From positions 1 to 20,434 of the IMG/VR virus record IMGVR_UViG_3300020160_000096: 20,434 nucleotides of DNA; one strand, written 5' to 3'. Position numbers and translations under genes: made by a program. The notes under the pieces were generated by a model. It was not told the origin of the DNA. It ran no database searches and saw only the letters and a list, made by a program, of their open reading frames with translations. Below are positions 1,736 through 20,344 of this stretch, one piece after another; the first letter of the stretch is position 1; every line of letters starts with the position of its first letter. Source of the DNA: a virus.

Positions 1736-2485
1736 ATGAAAGATTACAAACAATTATTAAAAGAACTCCCATCTAAAACGGTAGTTCTAGCCTGTGGTAA
1801 GTTTAACCCTCCAAACGTGGGACATGAACTTATTGTAAAGGCTGTCAAAGCACTGGCTGAGCAACGTAGCGCAGACCACGTAATCTATGCATCCACTGTT
1901 AGCGATGCGAAAAAGAATCCACTATTAGTAGAAAAGAAACTTCAGTATTTGAATCTGATTTTTCCAAAGACCAACTTTGTCGAATCTGAAAAGAATTTGG
2001 TAGACATCGTTAAGAGTCTAAAGGAAAGTTATTCAAATATTATTTTAGTGACTGGCGCAGAAGTTCCACGAGCACTAAAGAAATATAATTTAACTGTTAT
2101 CAATACTGGAGAAAGCGATCCAGACGAATCTGAGAATATTCGTTCATTTGCTTCTAAAGGATTGTATGAACAGTTTAAGAAAGCACTACCATCATCTATT
2201 AGAGATCTTGATAGTCGCAGATTAATGAATGACATAAGAACTGGTCTTGGGTTAGATATAATCAAAGAACAGATCAATCTAGTCAAAGACGATATTCGTG
2301 AGATGTATCATTCAGGTGCAATCTTCAATGTCGGAGAAATTGTTGAGTCTAATGGTAAGAAGTATGAGATTGTTAAGCGTGGTTCAAATCATCTACTACT
2401 AAAAGAAGACTCTGGTAAATTAGTATCTAAATGGATACAAGATGTTAAAATAATTACATTTAAAGAACACATAAAAAATGGATGA
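1736..2485 (+). CDS. Cytidylyltransferase-like nucleotidyltransferase with capsid-leader-like N-terminus
   Basis: The 249-aa protein has a Rossmann-type nucleotidyltransferase domain. The nucleotide-binding signature is G21-K-F-N-P-P-N27-V-G-H30, a variant of the HxGH motif with Asn in place of the first His. Residues around 118-128 contain T-G-E-S-D-P-D, matching S-G-E-R-D-P-D in the N-terminal domain of the 1158-aa protein downstream; the two are paralogues. The second signature (ISSTxxR, seen as SASKMR in the paralogue) reads FASKGLY here, so the Arg is missing and activity is uncertain. The C-terminal part, about 190-240, looks like a small beta domain (VGEIVESNGKKYEIVKRG). The first ten residues, M-K-D-Y-K-Q-L-L-K-E, resemble the T4 IPIII capsid-targeting leader and end in L-K-E. 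The last residues, ITFKEHIKNG, resemble the leader of a later gene. Substrate unknown. Confidence 0.75.
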   Translation: MKDYKQLLKELPSKTVVLACGKFNPPNVGHELIVKAVKALAEQRSADHVIYASTVSDAKKNPLLVEKKLQYLNLIFPKTNFVESEKNLVDIVKSLKESYSNIILVTGAEVPRALKKYNLTVINTGESDPDESENIRSFASKGLYEQFKKALPSSIRDLDSRRLMNDIRTGLGLDIIKEQINLVKDDIREMYHSGAIFNVGEIVESNGKKYEIVKRGSNHLLLKEDSGKLVSKWIQDVKIITFKEHIKNG

Positions 2486-2927: not shown

Positions 2928-3299
2928 ATGTTTTCATTTAAAGAATATCTCGAAGAAAGAAATAAGTCAGGATGCACCTGCTGGACAGGTTACAAACGTA
3001 AACCTGGAACTAAACCATGCGCTGAAGGTTCATGCATTAAAGAATCAGCAGTTGACGCTAAAGGACATAAAAGTTCTACTGGTGGTCTAACTCAAAAGGG
3101 ACGTGATGCATATAATGCCAAGGGTGCTAATTTACAAGCACCAGTGACAACACCTCCATCAGAATTAAAAGCTGGTAGCAAAGCAGCTAATCGTCGTAAA
3201 TCTTTCTGTGCTCGCATGGGTGGTATGGAAGGTCCAATGAAGAAACCAAATGGCGAACCAAGTCGCAAAGCACTTGCACTTAGAAAATGGAACTGCTAA
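2928..3299 (+). CDS. DUF6321-like small Cys/Lys-rich phage protein
   Basis: This is a 123-aa basic protein. The N-terminal part carries a cysteine cluster (C17-T-C19-W, then C31 and C36) that could bind a metal. The C-terminal half is highly conserved in aquatic T4-like phages: GGLTQKGRDAYN, then APVTTPPSELKAGSKAANRR, and the terminal ALRKWNC. I recognise the pattern as DUF6321; its function is unknown. The first ten residues, M-F-S-F-K-E-Y-L-E-E, match the spacing of the T4 capsid-targeting leader and end in L-E-E, a gp21-type cleavage tripeptide. If cut there, a basic mature peptide would be released into the head. It starts three bases after the Dps stop, and its stop overlaps the next ATG (TAATG). 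Confidence 0.8.
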   Translation: MFSFKEYLEERNKSGCTCWTGYKRKPGTKPCAEGSCIKESAVDAKGHKSSTGGLTQKGRDAYNAKGANLQAPVTTPPSELKAGSKAANRRKSFCARMGGMEGPMKKPNGEPSRKALALRKWNC

Positions 3300-4537
3300 T
3301 GAAATCATTTTTAACATATTTAAAAGAAGAAAAAGATGCCCTTGGCCATGGCTCAGATGCTGGTGATAAATTAAAACACATTACTCATGCTGAGGATCGT
3401 CCACTGATGCATGGCCACGAAGGTTTTGAGCATGCACATGGGGCATTAATGTCTGCGCATGAGCACACAAAGGCTGGCAATAACAGTAGTAAATTAACAA
3501 TGAAGTTTGATGGTTCACCTTCAGTTGTTTTTGGCCACCACCCAAGTAATGGTAAATTCTTTGTTGGAACAAAAGGTGCTTTTAATAAAGATCCAAAGAT
3601 TAATCATACAGAAGCTGACATCGATAAGAATCATGGACATGCTCCAGGTCTAGCAACTAAACTAAAAGCAGCACTACAGCATCTACCAAAAGTGACACCA
3701 AAGAAAGGTGTTTATCAAGGTGACATTATGCACTCTGAAGGTGATGTCGAGCATGATAAAAAAGCAGGCACTGCCAAATTTACTCCAAATACAATCTCTT
3801 ATACTGCCAAAGGCGATGAAGCAAAGAAAGCAGCAGGATCAAAATTCGGTGTTGCTGTTCATCAAAAGTATGAGCACAAAGAAGGTGCTGACAAGAAATC
3901 TTTAGAATCAATGCATGTAACTCCACATCCTGATAATCATAACTTCGGTGATCATAAAGACGTACATCTTAAGACTGCTAACCATGACACTTCTAAAGTT
4001 AATTATCCTAAAGAAGCACAAGACCAATTTCACAAACACATGGCTGCTGCCAAAGAAATTCATGATACTCATGGTCACAAGATGTATGATGCTGTTCATC
4101 CAGCCCACAAAGGTGATGCAGGACATTTGGCTTCTTACATCAATCATACAGTTAAGACAGATACAGATCCAACTGCAAAGGGTTTACAATCCCACGTTAC
4201 TGCTCATCACGAAAAGAAAGCAGCAAGTGTTAAGTCTGATGCTGCAAAAGCAAAACATACTGGTGAAGGTGCGTCACAGGTAGCACACATCGAAGCAAAC
4301 AAAGATCATTACGATAATCTATTGGCTTCTCATAGTCATTTGGCCAAAGCAAAAGATACATTAGTTAAAAGTTTAAATACTCATACTGGTGGATTAGATC
4401 ACCATATTGGTGATAACAAAACAGATCCCGAAGGATTTGTTGTTAATCATGAACACAATGGTAAAGAAGAGCCAACTAAATTAGTTAATCGTAAAGAGTT
4501 TAGTAAAGCCAACCTATTAAAAGTATACAAAAAATGA
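3299..4537 (+). CDS. His-rich DUF6267-like protein with ligase-type nucleotidyltransferase motifs
   Basis: I choose the ATG at 3299 (412 aa) over the one at 3287 because it forms a TAATG overlap with the upstream stop and gives the leader M-K-S-F-L-T-Y-L-K-E, like its neighbours. About 47 of 412 residues are His by hand count. The motif order of covalent nucleotidyltransferases (DNA/RNA ligases, capping enzymes) is visible: motif I K69-F-D-G72; a motif III-like Y139-Q-G-D142; motif IV-like E378-G-F-V-V; motif V-like K394-L-V with R398/K399. A long His/Lys/Ala-rich helical insert lies between motifs III and IV. The overall family resembles DUF6267, common in aquatic T4-like phages. In ligases K69 would be the adenylated lysine; whether this protein ligates anything is inference. 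Its stop overlaps the next start (ATGA). Confidence 0.75.
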   Translation: MKSFLTYLKEEKDALGHGSDAGDKLKHITHAEDRPLMHGHEGFEHAHGALMSAHEHTKAGNNSSKLTMKFDGSPSVVFGHHPSNGKFFVGTKGAFNKDPKINHTEADIDKNHGHAPGLATKLKAALQHLPKVTPKKGVYQGDIMHSEGDVEHDKKAGTAKFTPNTISYTAKGDEAKKAAGSKFGVAVHQKYEHKEGADKKSLESMHVTPHPDNHNFGDHKDVHLKTANHDTSKVNYPKEAQDQFHKHMAAAKEIHDTHGHKMYDAVHPAHKGDAGHLASYINHTVKTDTDPTAKGLQSHVTAHHEKKAASVKSDAAKAKHTGEGASQVAHIEANKDHYDNLLASHSHLAKAKDTLVKSLNTHTGGLDHHIGDNKTDPEGFVVNHEHNGKEEPTKLVNRKEFSKANLLKVYKK

Positions 4538-7500
4538 TTACATTTAAAGAAGCCAAAGATGCAGGTGGTCATGGGTCTGAAAAACACCATGCCATGGTAT
4601 TCGGTCGCATGAATCCAGTAACTTCTGGTCATGAAGCTGTTGTTAAAAAGATGCATGATGTTGCCAAAGAACATGGTGCTGGTCATTCTTTAATTGTTTC
4701 TCATAGTCAAGATGCTAAAAAGAATCCTCTCTCTGCAGATCAAAAAGTTAATCATGCAAAGAATGCATTTCCAGGAACTAATGTTTCATCTTCTAGTAAA
4801 GAAAAGCCAACTATCCTACATCATGCTGCAGAGTTACACAAACAAGGTGTAACTCACTTACATGTAGTTGCTGGTTCTGATCGTCATAAAGATATGCATG
4901 ATCTACTACATAAGTATAATGGGCAAGATTCTGGCCATGGTCACTACAAATTTAAAAAGATAACAGTACATTCTTCTGGTGAGAGAGATCCAGATGCAGA
5001 CGGTACTGAAGGAATGTCTGCAAGTAAAATGCGTGAGCATGCAGCATCTGGTAATAAAGCAGAGTTTCATAAAGGAACACCATCATCAATGAAACCAGAA
5101 CATAAAGATGCAATGTACAACGATGTGCGTAAAGGTATGGGTATTAAGGAAGAACTTAAAACATATAAAGATCTTATGGAAGACAGTTATCTAAGTAAAC
5201 TTATTTCTCGTCACCGACGTGGAGAAAAATTAGCAGCAAACGAACAAGAATTAGTTACATCTTCTTTAAAAAGAAGTAAACTATATGGTAAGTCTAAAAA
5301 TGCAATTAGTTCTGAAGTTAAAGAACACTATGAACAGATTTTAGAAACTATCGATGAGGCATTAACTGCTGTTGATAAAGGTGAGTACGATTACGAAGGA
5401 CAGATGGCTCGCACTCAGTTGCAAACTACTCTACGTAATTGTGAGGATTTGATTGATATGATCAAAGATAATGATAATATGCCAGAGTGGGTTCAGTCTA
5501 AAATTACATTGGCTCAAGATTATATCACTACTGTTAGAGATTATCTACAATCCAAAGAAGAATTAGGTGAGTCTGTTTCTGAGTTAAACAAACATATCTC
5601 GGATTTCTCTAAAGGTGTAAAGTCTTCATCTGCAAAACAAAGCACATACAAACGTGATAACAAACCAATTCATAATATGAAGCATGTTGAAACAGAGTCA
5701 GATCACCAAGCAGTCTTTAAACATCTACAAAAGATGGGTTACAAAAAGACTTCTGGTTATGATTCAAAACCACATGAGTTTGATATGCATCACAATCGTG
5801 AAGAGATGACATCAAAGAGTGACCCAGTTCACCACGCATCTGGTATTTCTGCCCATGTTGAAAAAGAACATGGTGGTAAGACTAAAGTTCACTTTACTCA
5901 TCGTCATATTAAAGAAGAACAAATTGATGAGATCAGTGGTATGACTACCAGAAGTTATATGCAAAAAGCAAGAACTCAGCTAAGCAATATTGAAGTTGGT
6001 CGTCGTAGTACTGGAGACAAAAACTTTGGAGCCGAGAAAGCAAGACGCAGAGCAAACACGTTAAACAAGATTGCTGATAAAACAGACTCAAGGGCAGTTC
6101 GTGATCAACTACACAAAGCAACTGAATTTGTTAAAGAAGAACAGATCGATGAACTATCCACTAATCTTCTAGCAAGATATAAAACAGCTGCAGGTGCTTC
6201 TGCTAAAGCAGCGGATGCATCTGGTAACTATGCTAAAGGCGACAAGCGTTTCAAAGGCATCAACAAAGCAACAAACAAACAGTTTGATAATGATCTAAAG
6301 AAACACAATCAAGTCAAAGAAGAAACTCACGATCAGCAAGCCGATCGTGTGAAACAATTGAAGAAGTTTAAAGACATGATGGCTGGTATGAAATTAGATG
6401 AAGTAAAAACTGGTAATCCAGGATTCGGTTATCATGGCCAACACCAAACAACACATAATGGTGATGATGCATATGAAAAGATTCATGCTCATGTTAAAAG
6501 TTTGACTGATAGTGATGACAAAACTGTAAAGCATTATCTTGATTCTGCTCATGGTCGTCACTTAGTTGGTCATGAAGATAATCATGACCACATTAAAAAA
6601 GACTTCAAGAAATTTAGTAAGTATTATCGTCCAGAAATGCATGAAGGAACTCTGCAACCATCAGGTACAGATAAAATAGAAACGGCTGGCAGTCCAGTGT
6701 CAGATATTGGAACACAAAAATTAAAGGTAACCAAAGTGAAATCATTTAAATTTTTTACAGCTGAACAGGTTCAGCCGATTCAAGAAGCATCAGTTAAATC
6801 TGAGAAACATAGCTGGGGTAAGATGATGACTGTTCATCATGGAGCCAGCCATTCATATCCTTTACATCCAGAACATCAAGAAGCAATCAGAAATTTGAAA
6901 CATGGTGAAAAAACTTCTTTCAAAGATGAAACTGGTGCTAAAGTAAATGTTCATCGTGATGTTGAAGATGTTCACTTTTCTTCTAATAAGACAGCTACTA
7001 AGACTACAGTTCCTCATAGTCATTTTAGCGAAGAACATGAATTAGATGAAAAACTAATTGGTGGACAAAAGAATCTAGACAAGAATAAGAATGGTAAACT
7101 TGATAAAAAAGACTTCGAGTTACTCCAAAAAGAAAATGCACCAGTTGCTCCAGTTCCTGATAAAAAGTATATCAAAGGAACACCTGAGAACAAAGCACTC
7201 AAAGCAGCACGTAAACCAATCAATGGTATGCCAACAAATGTAAAAGAAGCAGTTTACCAAAACAAAACAACTGGAGAGATTGTTGATACTGGCAAAAAAG
7301 AAGATCCTCCTTTCGATGGTCCATACAAATCTACTTTTAAGAAACCAAATAATCCAAGTCGTACAGGTATGGATTCAGCACGTGCATTAGCACAACGTGC
7401 TATTGGTAAGGTTAAAGAAAAAGCCATTAAAGAAGATAACGAACAACTCGATGAAGTTAATCATCGTGAGTTTGCTTCACAAGGTAAGATGCATCCAGAC

Positions 7501-8010
7501 ATGGCCAAGCATATGAAGACTGGTCAAGAGATGGACTTCTATCATTCTAAAACTGGCGACAAGATCTCTGGAATTGTTAAACACACTAGCGGATCTGAAG
7601 TTCATGTTAAAGCGCATAAAGATGGTAAAGTTGGCGCAGGTGAAGTTCATAAATTTAATGTTACATCTAAATTAGATGAAACAGCACCACTTAAAAAGAT
7701 TGATCATGTAAACCTTCCAGGTGAAGCACCACATGAAGAAAAATGGGAACCAGCTAAAAAGAAAATGGTTAAGAAAGAATCAGTATCATTCTCTGATTTC
7801 TTAAATCGTATAGATGAAATTAAAATGGCAGATCTGCCAACTCGTAAAGTTCAGGGTCGTTCTTATGGTGCAGACTATGAAGATCCAGCTGGAGCATTCG
7901 AGACAAAAGACGATATGAAAAAAGCAGAGCCAAAAAAGGCTGGGCGAAAAGTGGGACAAAAGATTGGTGCAAGAGCCAATCTCGGAAATTCTAAATTGCA
8001 TCAAGCATAA
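4534..8010 (+). CDS. Giant multidomain putative polyprotein, N-terminal nucleotidyltransferase, gp21-type cleavage sites
   Basis: The 1158-aa protein starts at an ATGA overlap. Residues 1-206 form a cytidylyltransferase-like domain: F-G-R-M-N-P-V-T30-S-G-H33 (HxGH variant), S-G-E-R-D-P-D, then S-A-S-K-M-R (ISSTxxR-like). Residues about 207-346 are a helical module (DYEGQMARTQLQTTLRNC and VQSKITLAQDY) recurrent in aquatic T4-like phages. Two related modules start at Q463-IDE-IS and Q537-IDE-LS. Residues 849-860 form a canonical EF-hand loop (DKNKNGKLDKKD). The tail from 1096 holds MADLPTRKVQGRSYGADY. I/L-x-E tripeptides end at E206, E346, E466, E540, E623, E751, E839, E974, E1049 and E1095, near module joints, as expected for gp21-type prohead protease sites. 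Leader-like segments recur at 208 (LKTYKDLMED), 736 (KSFKFFTAEQ) and 1084 (VSFSDFLNRI). Processing is inference; a long internal or scaffold-associated protein is the alternative. Confidence 0.75.
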   Translation: MITFKEAKDAGGHGSEKHHAMVFGRMNPVTSGHEAVVKKMHDVAKEHGAGHSLIVSHSQDAKKNPLSADQKVNHAKNAFPGTNVSSSSKEKPTILHHAAELHKQGVTHLHVVAGSDRHKDMHDLLHKYNGQDSGHGHYKFKKITVHSSGERDPDADGTEGMSASKMREHAASGNKAEFHKGTPSSMKPEHKDAMYNDVRKGMGIKEELKTYKDLMEDSYLSKLISRHRRGEKLAANEQELVTSSLKRSKLYGKSKNAISSEVKEHYEQILETIDEALTAVDKGEYDYEGQMARTQLQTTLRNCEDLIDMIKDNDNMPEWVQSKITLAQDYITTVRDYLQSKEELGESVSELNKHISDFSKGVKSSSAKQSTYKRDNKPIHNMKHVETESDHQAVFKHLQKMGYKKTSGYDSKPHEFDMHHNREEMTSKSDPVHHASGISAHVEKEHGGKTKVHFTHRHIKEEQIDEISGMTTRSYMQKARTQLSNIEVGRRSTGDKNFGAEKARRRANTLNKIADKTDSRAVRDQLHKATEFVKEEQIDELSTNLLARYKTAAGASAKAADASGNYAKGDKRFKGINKATNKQFDNDLKKHNQVKEETHDQQADRVKQLKKFKDMMAGMKLDEVKTGNPGFGYHGQHQTTHNGDDAYEKIHAHVKSLTDSDDKTVKHYLDSAHGRHLVGHEDNHDHIKKDFKKFSKYYRPEMHEGTLQPSGTDKIETAGSPVSDIGTQKLKVTKVKSFKFFTAEQVQPIQEASVKSEKHSWGKMMTVHHGASHSYPLHPEHQEAIRNLKHGEKTSFKDETGAKVNVHRDVEDVHFSSNKTATKTTVPHSHFSEEHELDEKLIGGQKNLDKNKNGKLDKKDFELLQKENAPVAPVPDKKYIKGTPENKALKAARKPINGMPTNVKEAVYQNKTTGEIVDTGKKEDPPFDGPYKSTFKKPNNPSRTGMDSARALAQRAIGKVKEKAIKEDNEQLDEVNHREFASQGKMHPDMAKHMKTGQEMDFYHSKTGDKISGIVKHTSGSEVHVKAHKDGKVGAGEVHKFNVTSKLDETAPLKKIDHVNLPGEAPHEEKWEPAKKKMVKKESVSFSDFLNRIDEIKMADLPTRKVQGRSYGADYEDPAGAFETKDDMKKAEPKKAGRKVGQKIGARANLGNSKLHQA
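5920..6345 (+). repeat. Two divergent QIDE[I/L]S protein modules
   Basis: Within the 1158-aa protein, two consecutive modules start with KEEQIDE followed by I-S (Q463) or L-S (Q537). Both contain an aromatic/basic helix (RSYMQKA and ARYKTAA) and a G-D-K-x-F-x-G or A-x-x-K-A block (GDKNFGAEKA and GDKRFKGINKA), and both end in V-K-E-E. The similarity is at protein level and the DNA has diverged, so this is an old duplication rather than a fresh repeat. Confidence 0.55.
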
Positions 8011-8034
8011 ATAATAATAGTCCAATCTAAGGAG
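8006..8034 (+). promoter_or_regulatory. Late-promoter-like box and strong ribosome binding site
   Basis: CATAAATA at 8006-8013 matches seven of eight positions of the T4 late box and overlaps the upstream stop codon. The spacing to the ATG (28 bases) is almost the same as for the exact box at 1701. TAAGGAG at 8028-8034, seven bases before the ATG at 8042, is the best Shine-Dalgarno sequence in the window. Together they predict strong late expression of the next gene. Confidence 0.55.
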
Positions 8035-8041
8035 AACAAAA

Positions 8042-8566
8042 ATGGCACTATGGGGAAATATCGATTCGGCAGCACCATCTGCTGGCACAACAGTTAACGT
8101 AACAAATGCTAGCACTGCTGTTACTGGTGTTAGCACTACATTCTTAACAGACTTATCAGTGGGTGATGTTCTTATGATCACTTCTGGTACAACTACTAAA
8201 AATCGTGTTGCAGCTATCGCTTCTAACACAGCATTAACTTTGGCTGATAACTTTACTGGAACTACTGCAGCAACTCTAGCGATTGCTAACGTAAAGATCC
8301 AGAAAGCACCAAAGTTTGTTTACCAAGATTCTAACCAAACTAGTGGTAAGACTTCTTTGGATCAAACATTCTTTGTTGACTCTACTGAAGCAACTATCGC
8401 TTCTAACAGACTAAAGGGCATTACACATTCAGGCTGGTGGAGAGTTAAAACATATACTGACTCTGCAAGCGCAACACGTTACAAAGCAGTTTGCTTAGTT
8501 GCTATGGGAACTGCGGTTGGTGTATCATCTGATGCTGCTGACGATGCGACTGTAGCAGACGCATAA
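8042..8566 (+). CDS. T4-like virion structural protein (MALWGN family)
   Basis: This 174-aa protein starts M-A-L-W-G-N, which I recognise as the N-terminus of a virion-associated protein conserved in aquatic T4-like phages. The first half is Thr/Ala/Val/Ser-rich with alternating beta-strand character (TVNVTNASTAVTGVSTTF, VGDVLMITSG), as in decoration or fibre-like beta domains. The second half carries the conserved block G-I-T-H-S-G-W-W-R-V-K-T-Y-T-D, followed by RYKAVCLVAM. Hydrophobicity shows no signal peptide. A near-perfect ribosome binding site and a strong terminator directly after the gene fit an abundant, separately transcribed structural protein. The exact virion position (head decoration, neck or tail) cannot be read from the sequence. 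Confidence 0.75.
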   Translation: MALWGNIDSAAPSAGTTVNVTNASTAVTGVSTTFLTDLSVGDVLMITSGTTTKNRVAAIASNTALTLADNFTGTTAATLAIANVKIQKAPKFVYQDSNQTSGKTSLDQTFFVDSTEATIASNRLKGITHSGWWRVKTYTDSASATRYKAVCLVAMGTAVGVSSDAADDATVADA

Positions 8567-8585
8567 TAAATACATTATGTATGTA

Positions 8586-8617
8586 AGATGGGGAGGTTTT
8601 CTCCCCATCTCTTTCTT
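8586..8617 (+). terminator. Rho-independent terminator
   Basis: A perfect 10-bp GC-rich stem has arms at 8586-8595 and 8601-8610 (AGATGGGGAG and CTCCCCATCT) around the loop GTTTT. It is followed by a T-rich tract through 8617. It lies 20 bases after the stop of the virion protein gene and is the clearest terminator in the window. Confidence 0.85.
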
Positions 8618-8631
8618 GAAGGTATTATGGT

Positions 8632-9009
8632 GTGAATGAAAAATTAACTGAAGCGAATTTCTTAGTATATGCAATGCATCATTATGACAATCCACAATGT
8701 CACAGTCTGCAAGAATTTGAAGAAGATTTAAAAAAGATCCTCTATCTTAAAAAATTATTATCTCGTTATAAGAATAATAATGAATTGAGAGAACGATTGA
8801 TACTTAATCATATTATTGTTCTTTACAATATTTTTGGTGAAGCCACAACAAATATGTTGTTTTTTAAGATAGAAGAATCTTGCTGGGATTCACTGATTAC
8901 GTTTTTAGTATATCTCGATCGTATGCCTGAAACTATTCCAGAATATGGAATCATACTTTCTGATGTTACATTAGATGAGTATATCATCGCAAATTTAAGG
9001 AAACTCTAA
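8632..9009 (+). CDS. Conserved T4-like phage protein, 125 aa
   Basis: The frame opens with GTG at 8632, preceded by GAAGG at 8618-8622; no in-frame ATG lies nearby. The pattern Y-D-N-P-Q-C near residue 20, then the basic stretch KKLLSRYK and L-I-L-N-H-I-I-V-L-Y-N-I-F-G-E-A-T, is one I recognise as a small conserved hypothetical protein of T4-like cyanophages and relatives (DUF7207-like; the number is from memory). It is mostly helical, with no signal peptide. Function is unknown. It follows the terminator, so it must be transcribed by readthrough or by a promoter not obvious here. An AATAAATA at 8565-8572 lies upstream of the terminator. It overlaps the next gene by TAATG. Confidence 0.75.
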   Translation: MNEKLTEANFLVYAMHHYDNPQCHSLQEFEEDLKKILYLKKLLSRYKNNNELRERLILNHIIVLYNIFGEATTNMLFFKIEESCWDSLITFLVYLDRMPETIPEYGIILSDVTLDEYIIANLRKL

Positions 9010-9530
9010 TGAGTCGCATTGTAGACAACATGATTGCTTATAGAATTGTTCGCATGCTTGTGACCGATTTCCCGCAAACAGATGCATTCAGATTAGGTAT
9101 TATCGATGCACATGGTAATGCGATCAAGCGTTCAAATATGCTGACTACGGATCAAGAGAAAAACTCTTACACATACCTACATCGTTTAGTTTTCAATATG
9201 AAGAAATTGATCAATAGACTTGGTGGAGAAAATAAGTTAAAGAGTATGGCTGCAGCATTATGGTTGATCAGAGAGTATTATGAGAGTGGTTCAAGAACTA
9301 CATCTAATATGGAAACCAAGTATAAGAATTTGATCGAAACATTAAACCACAATGTTATTCTTGTTGAAGAAGAAATTCTTATCAAGAAAGTTTTAGCAGA
9401 AGATGCACCAGCTAATGCAACTGGTGCAGCAGTTTCTACAAATGAACCAAAGATTGAACCAAAGAGCAAAAAGAAACCTATCATGGGTATGGCTCGCAGA
9501 CCAGCACTAGCAGTTAAAGAGGTTTGTTAA
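9009..9530 (+). CDS. Conserved T4-like phage protein, 173 aa
   Basis: This protein starts M-S-R-I-V-D-N-M-I-A-Y-R-I-V-R-M-L-V-T and contains Y-L-H-R-L-V-F-N-M-K-K-L-I-N-R-L-G-G-E. This is a conserved pattern in aquatic T4-like phages, where the gene usually sits next to the preceding one. The first 130 residues are predicted helical and soluble. The last 40 form an Ala/Lys/Pro-rich flexible tail (EPKIEPKSKKKPIMGMARRP). The start is fixed by the TAATG overlap with the upstream stop. The function is not established; virion association is plausible from synteny but is not shown by the sequence. The stop is followed immediately by the next ATG. Confidence 0.75.
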   Translation: MSRIVDNMIAYRIVRMLVTDFPQTDAFRLGIIDAHGNAIKRSNMLTTDQEKNSYTYLHRLVFNMKKLINRLGGENKLKSMAAALWLIREYYESGSRTTSNMETKYKNLIETLNHNVILVEEEILIKKVLAEDAPANATGAAVSTNEPKIEPKSKKKPIMGMARRPALAVKEVC

Positions 9531-9974
9531 ATGTGGATGTTGTCATTTGTACCTGATGCGGTACTCCATTTAGTTGTCTTTGGTATTATGATTACGGGCA
9601 TAGGCATCTATGCCCTTAGTTTTCTTACAAGATTCATTCCACCATTAATTCCATATTCTGGAATTGCTAGAATTGTTGGGACTATTCTTATGATTGGCGG
9701 TGTTTATTTCTATGGAAGTTATGCTACTGAAATGTCTTGGAGAAATAAAGTATCTGAGTTAGAAACTAAAGTTGCTGCTTCTGAAGCCGAATCTAAGAAG
9801 AGCAATATACAAATACAAAAAATATACGTAGATAAAATTAAGATAGTGAAAGAAACGCAAGTAGTAATACAAGAACGAATTAAAGAAGTTGAGAAGCGCA
9901 TTGACTCGCAATGTACTGTTGATGCTGAAGTTATTAATATCCTCAATGATGCTGCAAAGAGGAAAGTGAAATGA
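9531..9974 (+). CDS. Rz-like inner-membrane spanin (i-spanin)
   Basis: The 147-aa protein has two hydrophobic segments, about residues 11-36 and 47-63, followed by a long charged coiled coil (about 70-130: SELETKVAASEAESKK, KIVKETQVVIQERIKEVEKR) and a C-terminal tail with one Cys. A membrane anchor followed by a periplasmic coiled coil is the architecture of i-spanins, though two membrane segments are more than the usual one. The decisive context is the next gene, a small lipoprotein whose start overlaps this stop (ATGA), as in embedded or overlapping Rz/Rz1 pairs. The pair would fuse inner and outer membranes at the last step of lysis of a Gram-negative host. Confidence 0.7.
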   Translation: MWMLSFVPDAVLHLVVFGIMITGIGIYALSFLTRFIPPLIPYSGIARIVGTILMIGGVYFYGSYATEMSWRNKVSELETKVAASEAESKKSNIQIQKIYVDKIKIVKETQVVIQERIKEVEKRIDSQCTVDAEVINILNDAAKRKVK

Positions 9975-10231
9975 AACTACTATTGATTGTTCCTGTATTA
10001 TTATTAACTGGTTGTTTATCAACACCAGTAAAGAGAAGTTTTCCAGAGGTTCCTCCCGAACTAAAGGTGGCTTGTCCAGATTTGATGTTACTCGAGCCAA
10101 CAACGAAACTAAGTGAAGTAGTTTCTGTTGTTTCTAAAAACTATGGTCAATACCAAGAATGTCAGATCAAAGTAGACACTTGGATTGAATGGTATAATAG
10201 CCAAAAACAAATATTCGAGAGTGTTAAATAA
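9971..10231 (+). CDS. Rz1-like outer-membrane lipoprotein spanin (o-spanin)
   Basis: This 86-aa protein has a lipoprotein signal peptide with lipobox L12-T-G-C15, so the mature protein is a lipid-anchored outer-membrane polypeptide of about 72 residues. The mature part begins with a Pro-containing stretch (FPEVPPEL), as is usual for Rz1 proteins, followed by C-P-D-L and a conserved tail, N-Y-G-Q-Y-Q-E-C-Q-I-K-V-D-x-W-I-E-W-Y-N. Two further Cys residues could form disulphides. The overlap with the upstream membrane/coiled-coil gene and the XhlA-like gene that follows place it in a lysis cassette. Confidence 0.8.
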   Translation: MKLLLIVPVLLLTGCLSTPVKRSFPEVPPELKVACPDLMLLEPTTKLSEVVSVVSKNYGQYQECQIKVDTWIEWYNSQKQIFESVK

Positions 10232-10561
10232 ATGGAACATCTACCACAGGAAAGAATCGCTAAATTGGAAGCACAAGTAGAAGGCATAAAAGAAGATGTT
10301 GCTGCCGTAAAGCAAGACATCAAAGAACTTCACTCACGTATTACTACAGGTAATCGTGAGATCACTGACCACATCGATCACAAGATTGATGAACTTGCAA
10401 AGTCGGATGAAGAACAACATATTGCAATGTCAAAGAAAATGGATACGATTAATGAACGTGTAGATATTCTTGAGAGATGGCGTTGGATGATTGTAGGTGG
10501 TGCAATTGTTTGCGGTTATCTAATCGGACACATTGACTTTTTGTCAAAATTTATAAAATAA
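10232..10561 (+). CDS. XhlA-like coiled-coil protein with C-terminal membrane anchor
   Basis: This is a 109-aa protein. Residues 1-80 form a charged heptad-rich coiled coil (RIAKLEAQVEGIKEDVAAVKQD, MDTINERVDILERW), and residues about 84-101 form one membrane segment (WMIVGGAIVCGYLIGHI). This layout, including the L-E-R-W-R-W joint, matches the haemolysin XhlA family, which assists holins in phage lysis. The gene starts directly after the stop of the o-spanin gene. No separate canonical holin or endolysin is visible in the window, so this could be a holin, an accessory to one, or an unrelated tail-anchored protein. Confidence 0.6.
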   Translation: MEHLPQERIAKLEAQVEGIKEDVAAVKQDIKELHSRITTGNREITDHIDHKIDELAKSDEEQHIAMSKKMDTINERVDILERWRWMIVGGAIVCGYLIGHIDFLSKFIK

Positions 10562-18457: not shown

Positions 18458-20344
18458 GTGAAGTCTCTGGTAGTTCTTTTGCTTGGTTGTTTACTGAGTG
18501 TTTCAGTAGCACACTCACAAGTAGTGACAATTCCAATTCCTGGAAGTCCGCTGTCACTAAATGTTATGGCTAACCCACAGCCACTACAAAACATCAACAA
18601 TAATCCAGCAGCAACTGCTTATCAACTATGGGACGATGGTTACGCAAATGTACCATTAGGTTTCACTTTCCCATTCTTTGATAAGAACTTTACCAATTCT
18701 ACCATGTATAGTAATGGTGCTGTTCAGTTTGGTCCAGCTGTAACTGGGTTTCCAGCTAATAATACTTTTTGCTGTAATGGTATTACCATAGACAGAAATA
18801 CTCCATCCGCATATAATTATAGCATTCTTATGATGCAAGACGATTTGTATGGGGCTTCTGGTAATAATCACTATTCATTGGGTACAACAAATACAATGAC
18901 TTATGGATGGTATAATGTTGAGAGATTAGGTTCACCTCAAAACAAAACTAGTTTTGAATTAAAAGTTGACAGCACGGGTGGTATTGACATGCGTTGGACT
19001 GGTGCATTAGTATCATACAATTCACCAGCAATCGGAGTGATTGGTGATGCCTCTAAAGGAGAGTTTGCTGTTCTTCAGCAAGGTGGGCTTGCATCGAATA
19101 CTTTCTCAATTCCAGGATTGACTCAGTGGACTACTGGACAAAGTCCAGTTGTTATTGACCCATGCACAACAAATCCACTTTTTGCAACAACTTGTTCTGG
19201 ATATCAAGCTGCATATTTAGAACAGCAATGTTCGGCTAACTCATTGTACTCAACAAGCTGCTCTGGTTATCAAACTGCATATACCAATCAGCAATGTGCA
19301 ATCAATCCACTATACTCTGCATCTTGTTCTGGTTATGCTGACGCATATTATACTCAACAGTGTACAGCTAATCAACTATATGACACTGGATGTCCAGGTT
19401 ATGCAGCAGCTTACCTAGATCAACAATGCTCAATCAACCCATTATATTCTACAACTTGTACTGGTTACGCTGCAGCATATCATAATCAACAGTGTACTGC
19501 TAATCCTCTTTATTCTACAACTTGTACTGGTTACGCTGCAGCATATAAAGCACAACAATGTTCACTAGATGGATTGTATGATAGAACCTGCCCCAATTAT
19601 GCCACTGCTTATGCGACTAAAATGGTTCTTGAACAGCAAGGCACAGCATCAATAGTAGCAACTGCAGGTACAGTGGCACGAAACGATCCTGCCAATCAAC
19701 CTGTTTCTACAACAACTGTTTCAGCTACAGTTGGTTCCGATGGCGCAGTTTCTGTCGGAGTTTCAAAAACAGGTGATAGTAATGTGGACAAAGCAATTGC
19801 TCCTCCGCCACCAAGTACAAATTCTGCTGGATCACCAGCAGCAGTTCAGTTAGCACCACCCCCACCTGCTCCACAACAACAAATGGCTCAGAACGAACCA
19901 AAGGGTGGTGGTAAACAAGAGGAAAGAAAAGATGATGCTCCGAAAGGCACTGGAGGCAGTTCTCCGCCACAGAATACTAATACTGCTCAAGCGTCATCTG
20001 ATAAACCAGCAGCACCAACTGCTCGTCAAGCACTCCAAGAACGAAGAGAAGCTGCAGCAAAAGCAGAAGCAGTAGAAAAAGGTAAAGACCTTGCTAATCA
20101 AATGGGTAAGGCATCTGACTTGGAAGCGCAGAAAGCAGTTCAGAATGTAGTTATCCAAGCAATGGGTTTCACTCCTGGATTTGATGTATACAGCAGACAG
20201 ATGATAGTTCAACAACAGTTCTATCCATCGGTATCAGTTTATAATAATCAAAAGAATATTGATAATCGTTATACAGCAAGAATGTTTGGTGGCACTGACA
20301 GACTCCATAATCAGATGGTAGAGAAACAATATGAAGGTAGATAA
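18458..20344 (+). CDS. Large secreted protein with NIDO-like domain and seven Cys repeats
   Basis: The start is GTG at 18458, with AAGGA at 18446-18450. The 628-aa precursor has a signal peptide (about residues 1-20, ending AHS). Residues about 45-230 resemble the beta-rich domain of extracellular proteins with the pattern V-P-L-G-F-T-F-P-F-F and Y-S-N-G-A-V-Q-F-G (NIDO-like). Residues 236-389 form seven tandem 22-residue repeats, each with C at position 1 and C at position 11 followed by x-G-Y and ending A-Y-x-x-Q-Q. A Pro/Gly/Gln-rich disordered linker follows (about 430-530), then an Ala/Glu/Lys helical segment and a C-terminal domain with Y-S-R-Q-M-I-V-Q-Q-Q-F-Y. Such architecture suggests a surface or periplasmic protein made by the infected cell, or a secreted virion part. 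Function unknown. Confidence 0.75.
   Translation: MKSLVVLLLGCLLSVSVAHSQVVTIPIPGSPLSLNVMANPQPLQNINNNPAATAYQLWDDGYANVPLGFTFPFFDKNFTNSTMYSNGAVQFGPAVTGFPANNTFCCNGITIDRNTPSAYNYSILMMQDDLYGASGNNHYSLGTTNTMTYGWYNVERLGSPQNKTSFELKVDSTGGIDMRWTGALVSYNSPAIGVIGDASKGEFAVLQQGGLASNTFSIPGLTQWTTGQSPVVIDPCTTNPLFATTCSGYQAAYLEQQCSANSLYSTSCSGYQTAYTNQQCAINPLYSASCSGYADAYYTQQCTANQLYDTGCPGYAAAYLDQQCSINPLYSTTCTGYAAAYHNQQCTANPLYSTTCTGYAAAYKAQQCSLDGLYDRTCPNYATAYATKMVLEQQGTASIVATAGTVARNDPANQPVSTTTVSATVGSDGAVSVGVSKTGDSNVDKAIAPPPPSTNSAGSPAAVQLAPPPPAPQQQMAQNEPKGGGKQEERKDDAPKGTGGSSPPQNTNTAQASSDKPAAPTARQALQERREAAAKAEAVEKGKDLANQMGKASDLEAQKAVQNVVIQAMGFTPGFDVYSRQMIVQQQFYPSVSVYNNQKNIDNRYTARMFGGTDRLHNQMVEKQYEGR
19163..19624 (+). repeat. 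Seven tandem 66-bp units encoding Cys repeats
   Basis: Seven in-frame units of 66 bases encode C-x-x-N-P-L-Y-x-x-x-C-x-G-Y-x-x-A-Y-x-x-Q-Q with variation. Units 5 and 6 share an identical run of about 36 bases (19445-19480 and 19511-19546, 66 bases apart), which points to recent duplication or gene conversion. The other units have drifted in DNA but keep both Cys. Unit 7 is degenerate at its end (ATKM instead of xxQQ). Confidence 0.85.

Follow-up and report, generated by a model that had tools for sequence, protein, structure and literature searches.

The 1158-residue polyprotein encoded by the window (a virus record of 20,434 bases) is probably head-internal cargo of a T4-type (Kyanoviridae-like) phage, which would be loaded into the prohead and cut there by gp21. 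Its cleavage, its virion location, the retention of its pieces and their injection are what we infer from comparing sequences. A sequence-only reading had described a modular protein with gp21-type joints, likely to be head-internal, and the comparison with 34 related loci (IMG/VR scan) raised this suggestion to a strong inference: sites delimit the modules that move as units, the site pattern agrees with that of the viruses' own capsid and scaffold proteins, gp21 genes occur in near relatives, and mass spectrometry has found homologues of module 1 in the virions of other phages. The gene cluster is located close to thyX, nrdA and nrdB, outside of the head operon, and the polyprotein is composed as follows (here and below ↓ precedes the P1' residue).

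4534..8010, + strand: polyprotein ORF, 1158 aa, pI 9.2, 13.5% Lys
4534..5151, + strand: module 1 (1-206), NMNAT/NadD-like nucleotidyltransferase, ends in IKE206 (phrog_3041, 8.9e-57; PDB fold search)
5143..5151, + strand: joint IKE206, a K-E type tripeptide and weak protease-site candidate
5158..5181, + strand: internal targeting-like stretch KTYKDLME (209-216), by resemblance only; SYQTFME in L015/L017
5350..5358, + strand: joint IDE275↓A, left border of a mobile helical module
5359..5571, + strand: helical module 276-346, ends in LGE346; mobile, also found within a neighbouring gene of relatives
5572..5931, + strand: module 347-466, ends in IDE466
5932..6153, + strand: module 467-540, basic, helical, ends in IDE540; close relatives lack it
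6154..6402, + strand: module 541-623, ends in LDE623; first part moved in L005
6403..6786, + strand: module 624-751, ends in IQE751 (phrog_8020); relatives have an extra module after 704
6787..7050, + strand: module 752-839, ends in LDE839
7051..7455, + strand: module 840-974, ends in LDE974; EF-hand-like stretch 848-868 (weak EF-hand match)
7447..7455, + strand: joint LDE974; I/L-x-E here in 27 of 29 contexts
7456..7680, + strand: M10 (975-1049), a small beta-barrel module, mobile, flanked by LDE974 and LDE1049
7672..7680, + strand: joint LDE1049; I/L-x-E here in 26 of 29 contexts, Leu and Glu invariant (18/18)
7681..7818, + strand: segment 1050-1095, ends in targeting-like SFSDFLNRIDE
7819..8007, + strand: basic C-terminal module 1096-1158

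All ten I/L-x-E tripeptides that had been listed were found at their positions in the product of 4534-8010 (IKE206, LGE346, IDE466, IDE540, LDE623, IQE751, LDE839, LDE974, LDE1049 and IDE1095), and together with LME216, ILE271, IDE275, IKE461 and IKE967 the total amounts to 15 as compared to 7.6 in composition shuffles (P=0.006), whereby the shuffle comparison sides with the proposal. It is the D-E form that carries the signal, because I/L-D-E occurs 8 times where 0.54 were expected and none of 20,000 composition shuffles reached 8. IDE275, which had been set aside as a tripeptide within a predicted helix that may be unused, constitutes the left border of the mobile module 276-346. This module recurs in other proteins, and its closest copies show LDE↓A or IDE↓A at the matching border.

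Across 46 cluster proteins I/L-D-E was counted 84 times as compared to 17.8 expected, with V-[DE]-E (22 vs 24), [IL]-D-D (11 vs 14) and E-D-[IL] (18 vs 17.5) remaining at expectation and E-x-[IL] being elevated overall as well (1.56x); P values are optimistic here because related proteins are not independent. When unique contexts were considered, x-D-E was enriched 5.1x for Leu and 3.7x for Ile and stood at 0.8x for Val, and Ala was enriched 3.6x at P1', a preference that these viruses also show at their capsid and scaffold sites. As expected of a substrate of a gp21-type protease, I/L-x-E occurs beyond chance and P3 and P1 are conserved. With x-K-E the enrichment at P3 extends to V, I, M and F alike, which renders IKE206, IKE461 and IKE967 weak candidates; counting every I/L-x-E as a site was rejected, as the P3 spectrum shows that K-E joints are not I/L-specific. 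For sites such as 206 the proposal consequently stands in part: V/M/F-K-E is equally enriched, so that I/L-specificity is lost, and residue 206 is nonetheless a real module end. The stand-alone NMNAT genes of L019 and L023 stop at the position of this joint.

The window's 20 kb fragment does not contain gp21. A Peptidase_S77 gene and gp23 were each found in the related contigs G004, G005, G007 and G008, and the module 1 of G004 is about 99% identical to the window copy. The cleavage rule of T4 gp21 is L/I-X-E (PMC9026906), and the T4 record shows sites of the same kind. Of all genes in the four contigs the gp22 scaffold gene has the strongest I/L-x-E excess (e.g., 18 vs 6.4), with KLDE↓A or QLDE↓A close to the gp22 start in two of the contigs, and gp23 has LNE↓A, IFE↓A or LFE↓A where the N-terminal maturation site is expected. 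In G008, gp23 (105614-106882) has FTE↓A at the expected maturation site, not I/L-x-E, which suggests that the protease of this virus may accept Phe at P3.

Alignment of the relatives revealed that entire modules are gained, lost or moved at the joints, the polyprotein ORF being uninterrupted in L001, L002, L005 and L015-L017. Modules 276-346 and 467-540 are missing from L001, L002, L005, L007 and L009, in L001, L002 and L006 an additional segment follows residue 905, and the edges of exchanged modules read KEE...I/L-D-E or similar; helical-fragment rows that were misplaced in the alignments were left out. Considering 999 alignment ends from 46 proteins, I/L-x-E was found 249 times within 5 residues of a module breakpoint as compared to 140.6 expected, with [IL]-x-D (0.98) and [IL]-x-K (1.06) not being enriched near these same ends. 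V/F/M-x-E (1.5) and KE (1.64x, within 5 residues) are likewise raised near breakpoints, and therefore the joints have a wider KEE-rich context. Site 540 reads V-N-E in L001, L005 and L007, and positions 596 and 905 are V-K-E.

The most detailed view of a joint comes from the mobile module M10, for which 42 loci provided 29 distinct flank contexts. Despite differing neighbours, I/L-x-E was kept at its left site in 27 and at its right site in 26 of these contexts, and in 18 aligned homologues the module ends with L-[DES]-E, whereby Leu (P3) and Glu (P1) are invariant and P2 is free. In L107, M10 opens the ORF as MKSFLEFQKLDE↓VNH, where an N-terminal targeting sequence terminates in the left joint. 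When M10 was modelled separately, its LDE end fell outside of the fold; a fold search gave SH3/Tudor-like matches that were weak and non-significant, and no M10 homologue was detectable among isolated phages. These findings bear on the idea of an uncut multidomain protein, in which the I/L-D-E joints would be a conserved linker or recombination sequence aiding shuffling. The KEE-rich joint context and the existence of V/M/F-K-E joints speak for it, yet the conservation is that of protease sites (constant P3 and P1, variable P2, Ala at P1'), V-D-E and I/L-D-D are excluded although a linker would tolerate them, and the same tripeptides are found in gp22, in gp23 and at the ends of targeting sequences, so that this idea is regarded as quite improbable.

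Module 1 is predicted to possess a NadD/NMNAT fold, as NadD structures top the fold search and the (H/T)-x-G-H motif is present as T-S-G-H, while phmmer of module 1 against the PDB gave nothing useful. For the polyprotein, Pfam returned weak matches only, PHROGs identified module 1 and families without assigned function, and neither scan found a peptidase domain. The full AlphaFold2 model (52 alignment rows) has a mean pLDDT of 60.5 with several modules being predicted as disordered or of low confidence. Within this model, sites 466, 623, 751 and 839 reside in low-confidence chain, 206 and 1049 at domain edges, and 275, 346, 540, 974 and 1095 within predicted helices, whereby comparison with all Glu residues revealed that the sites do not significantly avoid confident regions; the model thus neither supports nor refutes the placement of the sites in linkers.

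The disordered or low-confidence modules would also suit a sacrificial core or scaffold-like protein, which gp21 would cut at the same sites and most fragments of which would exit the head, giving it a role in assembly instead of one as cargo. This reading, which we consider unlikely, is in line with gp22 of the same viruses holding even more I/L-x-E and with the T4 core proteins gp22 and gp67 being cut into numerous fragments, most of which exit the head (PMC9026906). Against it, module 1 is a folded NMNAT domain without an internal site (0 vs 0.5 expected), homologues of which are found in mature virions (PMC9602691, PMC10665884), the polyprotein's sites locate to joints whereas those of gp22 are spread throughout, and module content varies among close relatives, unlike that of an essential scaffold.

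For the head-internal cargo reading, the route into the prohead is of importance. T4 IPIII starts with MKTYQEFIAE, and T4 mutants identified residues 4 and 7 as relevant for targeting and residues 8 and 10 for processing (PMC9026906). Comparable starts were found in front of the polyprotein:

1736..1765, + strand: targeting-like start MKDYKQLLKE of the second NMNAT-like gene (1736-2485)
2928..2957, + strand: targeting-like start MFSFKEYLEE of the DUF6321 gene (2928-3299)
3299..3328, + strand: targeting-like start MKSFLTYLKE of the DUF6267 gene (3299-4537)

The window cluster hence carries two NMNAT-like enzymes, the second with its own targeting-like start, and a Ferritin/Dps-like gene within the cluster (2478-2924; PF00210, 6.8e-22) is without one; for DUF6267, no paper was found in the open-access collection searched. 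Across the four contigs the T4-type targeting pattern occurs in 8 of 29 cluster genes as compared to 1 of 697 genes elsewhere (P=2e-11, an optimistic value because the cluster was noticed before the test). The window polyprotein itself starts with MITFKEAKD only and has no N-terminal targeting sequence ending in I/L-x-E; in L015 and L017 the start reads MITFKELFE↓AKD and contains the site as LFE↓A, and the neighbours at 1736, 2928 and 3299 have targeting-like starts ending in I/L-x-E. Judging from this alignment, the window N-terminus is a worn targeting sequence, the best part of which is lost. In relatives, F-x-x-F-(L/I/V) followed by I/L-x-E precedes the C-terminal module.

Isolated cyanophages connect these starts to virions. 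Homologues of the module 1 NMNAT were detected by mass spectrometry in S-SCSM1 and S-CREM2 virions (PMC9602691, PMC10665884), and they start with MKSFLQFLKE↓A (S-SCSM1 NMNAT) and MKNFSSFLTE↓A (S-CREM2). As an independent test, a looser pattern was applied to S-CREM2, where it matches 6 of 218 genes, five of which belong to the virion list given in Table 3 of PMC10665884 (Fisher P=0.003; shuffling expects 0.6), namely the SAM hydrolase, ORF13, an APH-like kinase, a 237-aa protein and the cytidylyltransferase. S-SCSM1 is a weak replicate, as only one of four annotated starts matching the pattern, that of the NMNAT, belongs to a virion protein (PMC9602691), and the targeting rule is therefore not fully specific; ORF89, 90, 92 and 93 around the NMNAT are also annotated as virion proteins. 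Further observations on these phages concern the S-CREM2 loci L082 and L084-L087 (OR473000), whose genes at 3837, 10310, 10579 and 107301 encode virion proteins with T4-type targeting starts (the SAM hydrolase and the APH-like kinase being among these), the Cas9-like S-CREM2 virion protein (7704-10313) with LRFASFMAE↓AA close to the N-terminus and KTFRDFLN at the C-terminal end, and the virion protein ORF93 of S-SCSM1 (L075, 9487-9696), which has the targeting-like C-terminus KRTFKEFLEYIE. Syn19_175 (L078, 7965-9764; 599 aa), which adjoins an NMNAT gene, holds 16 I/L-x-E as compared to 6.2 expected and may be a multi-site protein of a cyanophage that has been isolated and can be cultured.

The location of the cluster near the DNA-metabolism genes thyX, nrdA and nrdB, not in the head operon, could alternatively mean that the cluster encodes early or metabolic proteins of the cytosol that have no connection to the head, with the virion homologues being carry-over, which the authors of the mass spectrometry work allow for abundant proteins (PMC10665884, PMC9602691), and the motif resulting from chance or composition. 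Given that composition controls fail to reproduce the pattern and that targeting motifs are concentrated in the cluster and associated with virion location, this explanation is held to be highly improbable.

The mechanism suggested for the head-internal cargo assumes that the cluster products are sorted into the prohead core via T4-type capsid-targeting sequences. Loading of the polyprotein is the weakest link of this mechanism, and since the N-terminal tag of the window copy is mostly lost, alternative routes were proposed, whereby internal tag-like stretches (209-216, 1085-1095) or affinity for the core may be relied on. Inside the prohead a gp21-type protease would cut after I/L-x-E, mainly I/L-D-E, at the module joints and would release the NMNAT-like enzyme and about ten smaller proteins, which would be taken up into the head along with the DNA and probably reach the host when it is infected. 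In the course of evolution the modules are swapped as cassettes bounded by the proposed cut sites, and some joints look like fused starts of formerly separate tagged genes.

Several known systems share part of these features, and the putative mode of action would unite that of tagged T4 internal proteins with the multi-site cutting of gp22/gp67. Like T4 IPI-III, the window neighbours are basic, variable proteins, and their starts follow M-K-x-(F/Y)-x-x-(F/Y/L)-(I/L)-x-E, the T4 key positions being kept; IPI-III are single small proteins with one N-terminal tag each, whereas the polyprotein comprises about eleven modules and internal sites. T4 gp22 and gp67 likewise hold many I/L-x-E per protein, and gp22 of the related contigs has the same KLDE↓A/QLDE↓A, but the fragments of these T4 proteins are mostly discarded and their sites occur throughout, while those of the polyprotein border exchangeable modules. 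The NMNAT/cytidylyltransferase of S-SCSM1 and S-CREM2, located to the virion by mass spectrometry, is homologous to module 1 and has a similar gene neighbourhood, yet it is encoded by shorter single genes with their own tag, whereas in the polyprotein this module is joined with many further ones. Polyvalent proteins of phages and plasmids, likened to polyproteins by their authors, also combine many domains per polypeptide and are thought to enter the host with the DNA (PMC5512222); in contrast to the window polyprotein, embedded peptidases release their parts. Substrates of the phiKZ and SPN3US prohead proteases resemble the proposed cargo polyprotein in having several sites per head protein and in including abundant ejected cargo, but the motif is S/A-x-E (PMC9026906) and the cuts remove propeptides instead of separate modules (PMC10052503).

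What is new here is that the neighbouring genes carry T4-type capsid-targeting starts and that in S-CREM2 this motif is linked to virion location; in the open-access collection searched, 'capsid targeting' and 'cyanophage' coincide in a single paper, which has 'cyanophage' in its references only. The ten-residue tag rule explains several virion enzymes of cyanophages and leads one to expect further ones. Should gp21 cut the polyprotein in the manner suggested, this phage would load many proteins from one gene by a polyprotein strategy. The joints are ready-made boundaries for expressing uncharacterised modules singly. A wider and tentative generalisation, on which we are close to evenly divided with a slight leaning against it, is that T4-type phages of marine and freshwater habitats might use a general cargo code in which an N-terminal tag loads, I/L-D-E joints release and cassettes are swapped freely, so that one gene would deliver a panel for host takeover or counter-defence, including a ready-made NMNAT, at infection. 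An NMNAT carried in the virion could replenish NAD+ where host defences deplete it. Cyanophage virions hold NMNAT, a kinase, a SAM hydrolase and a Cas9-like nuclease, whereby the reason for their presence was left open and carry-over was considered possible (PMC9602691, PMC10665884). Apart from the cluster, the window encodes at 18458-20344 a secreted-looking protein of 628 aa with a GTG start and about eight tandem Cys-containing repeats of about 19 residues (NPLYSTSCSGYQAAY).
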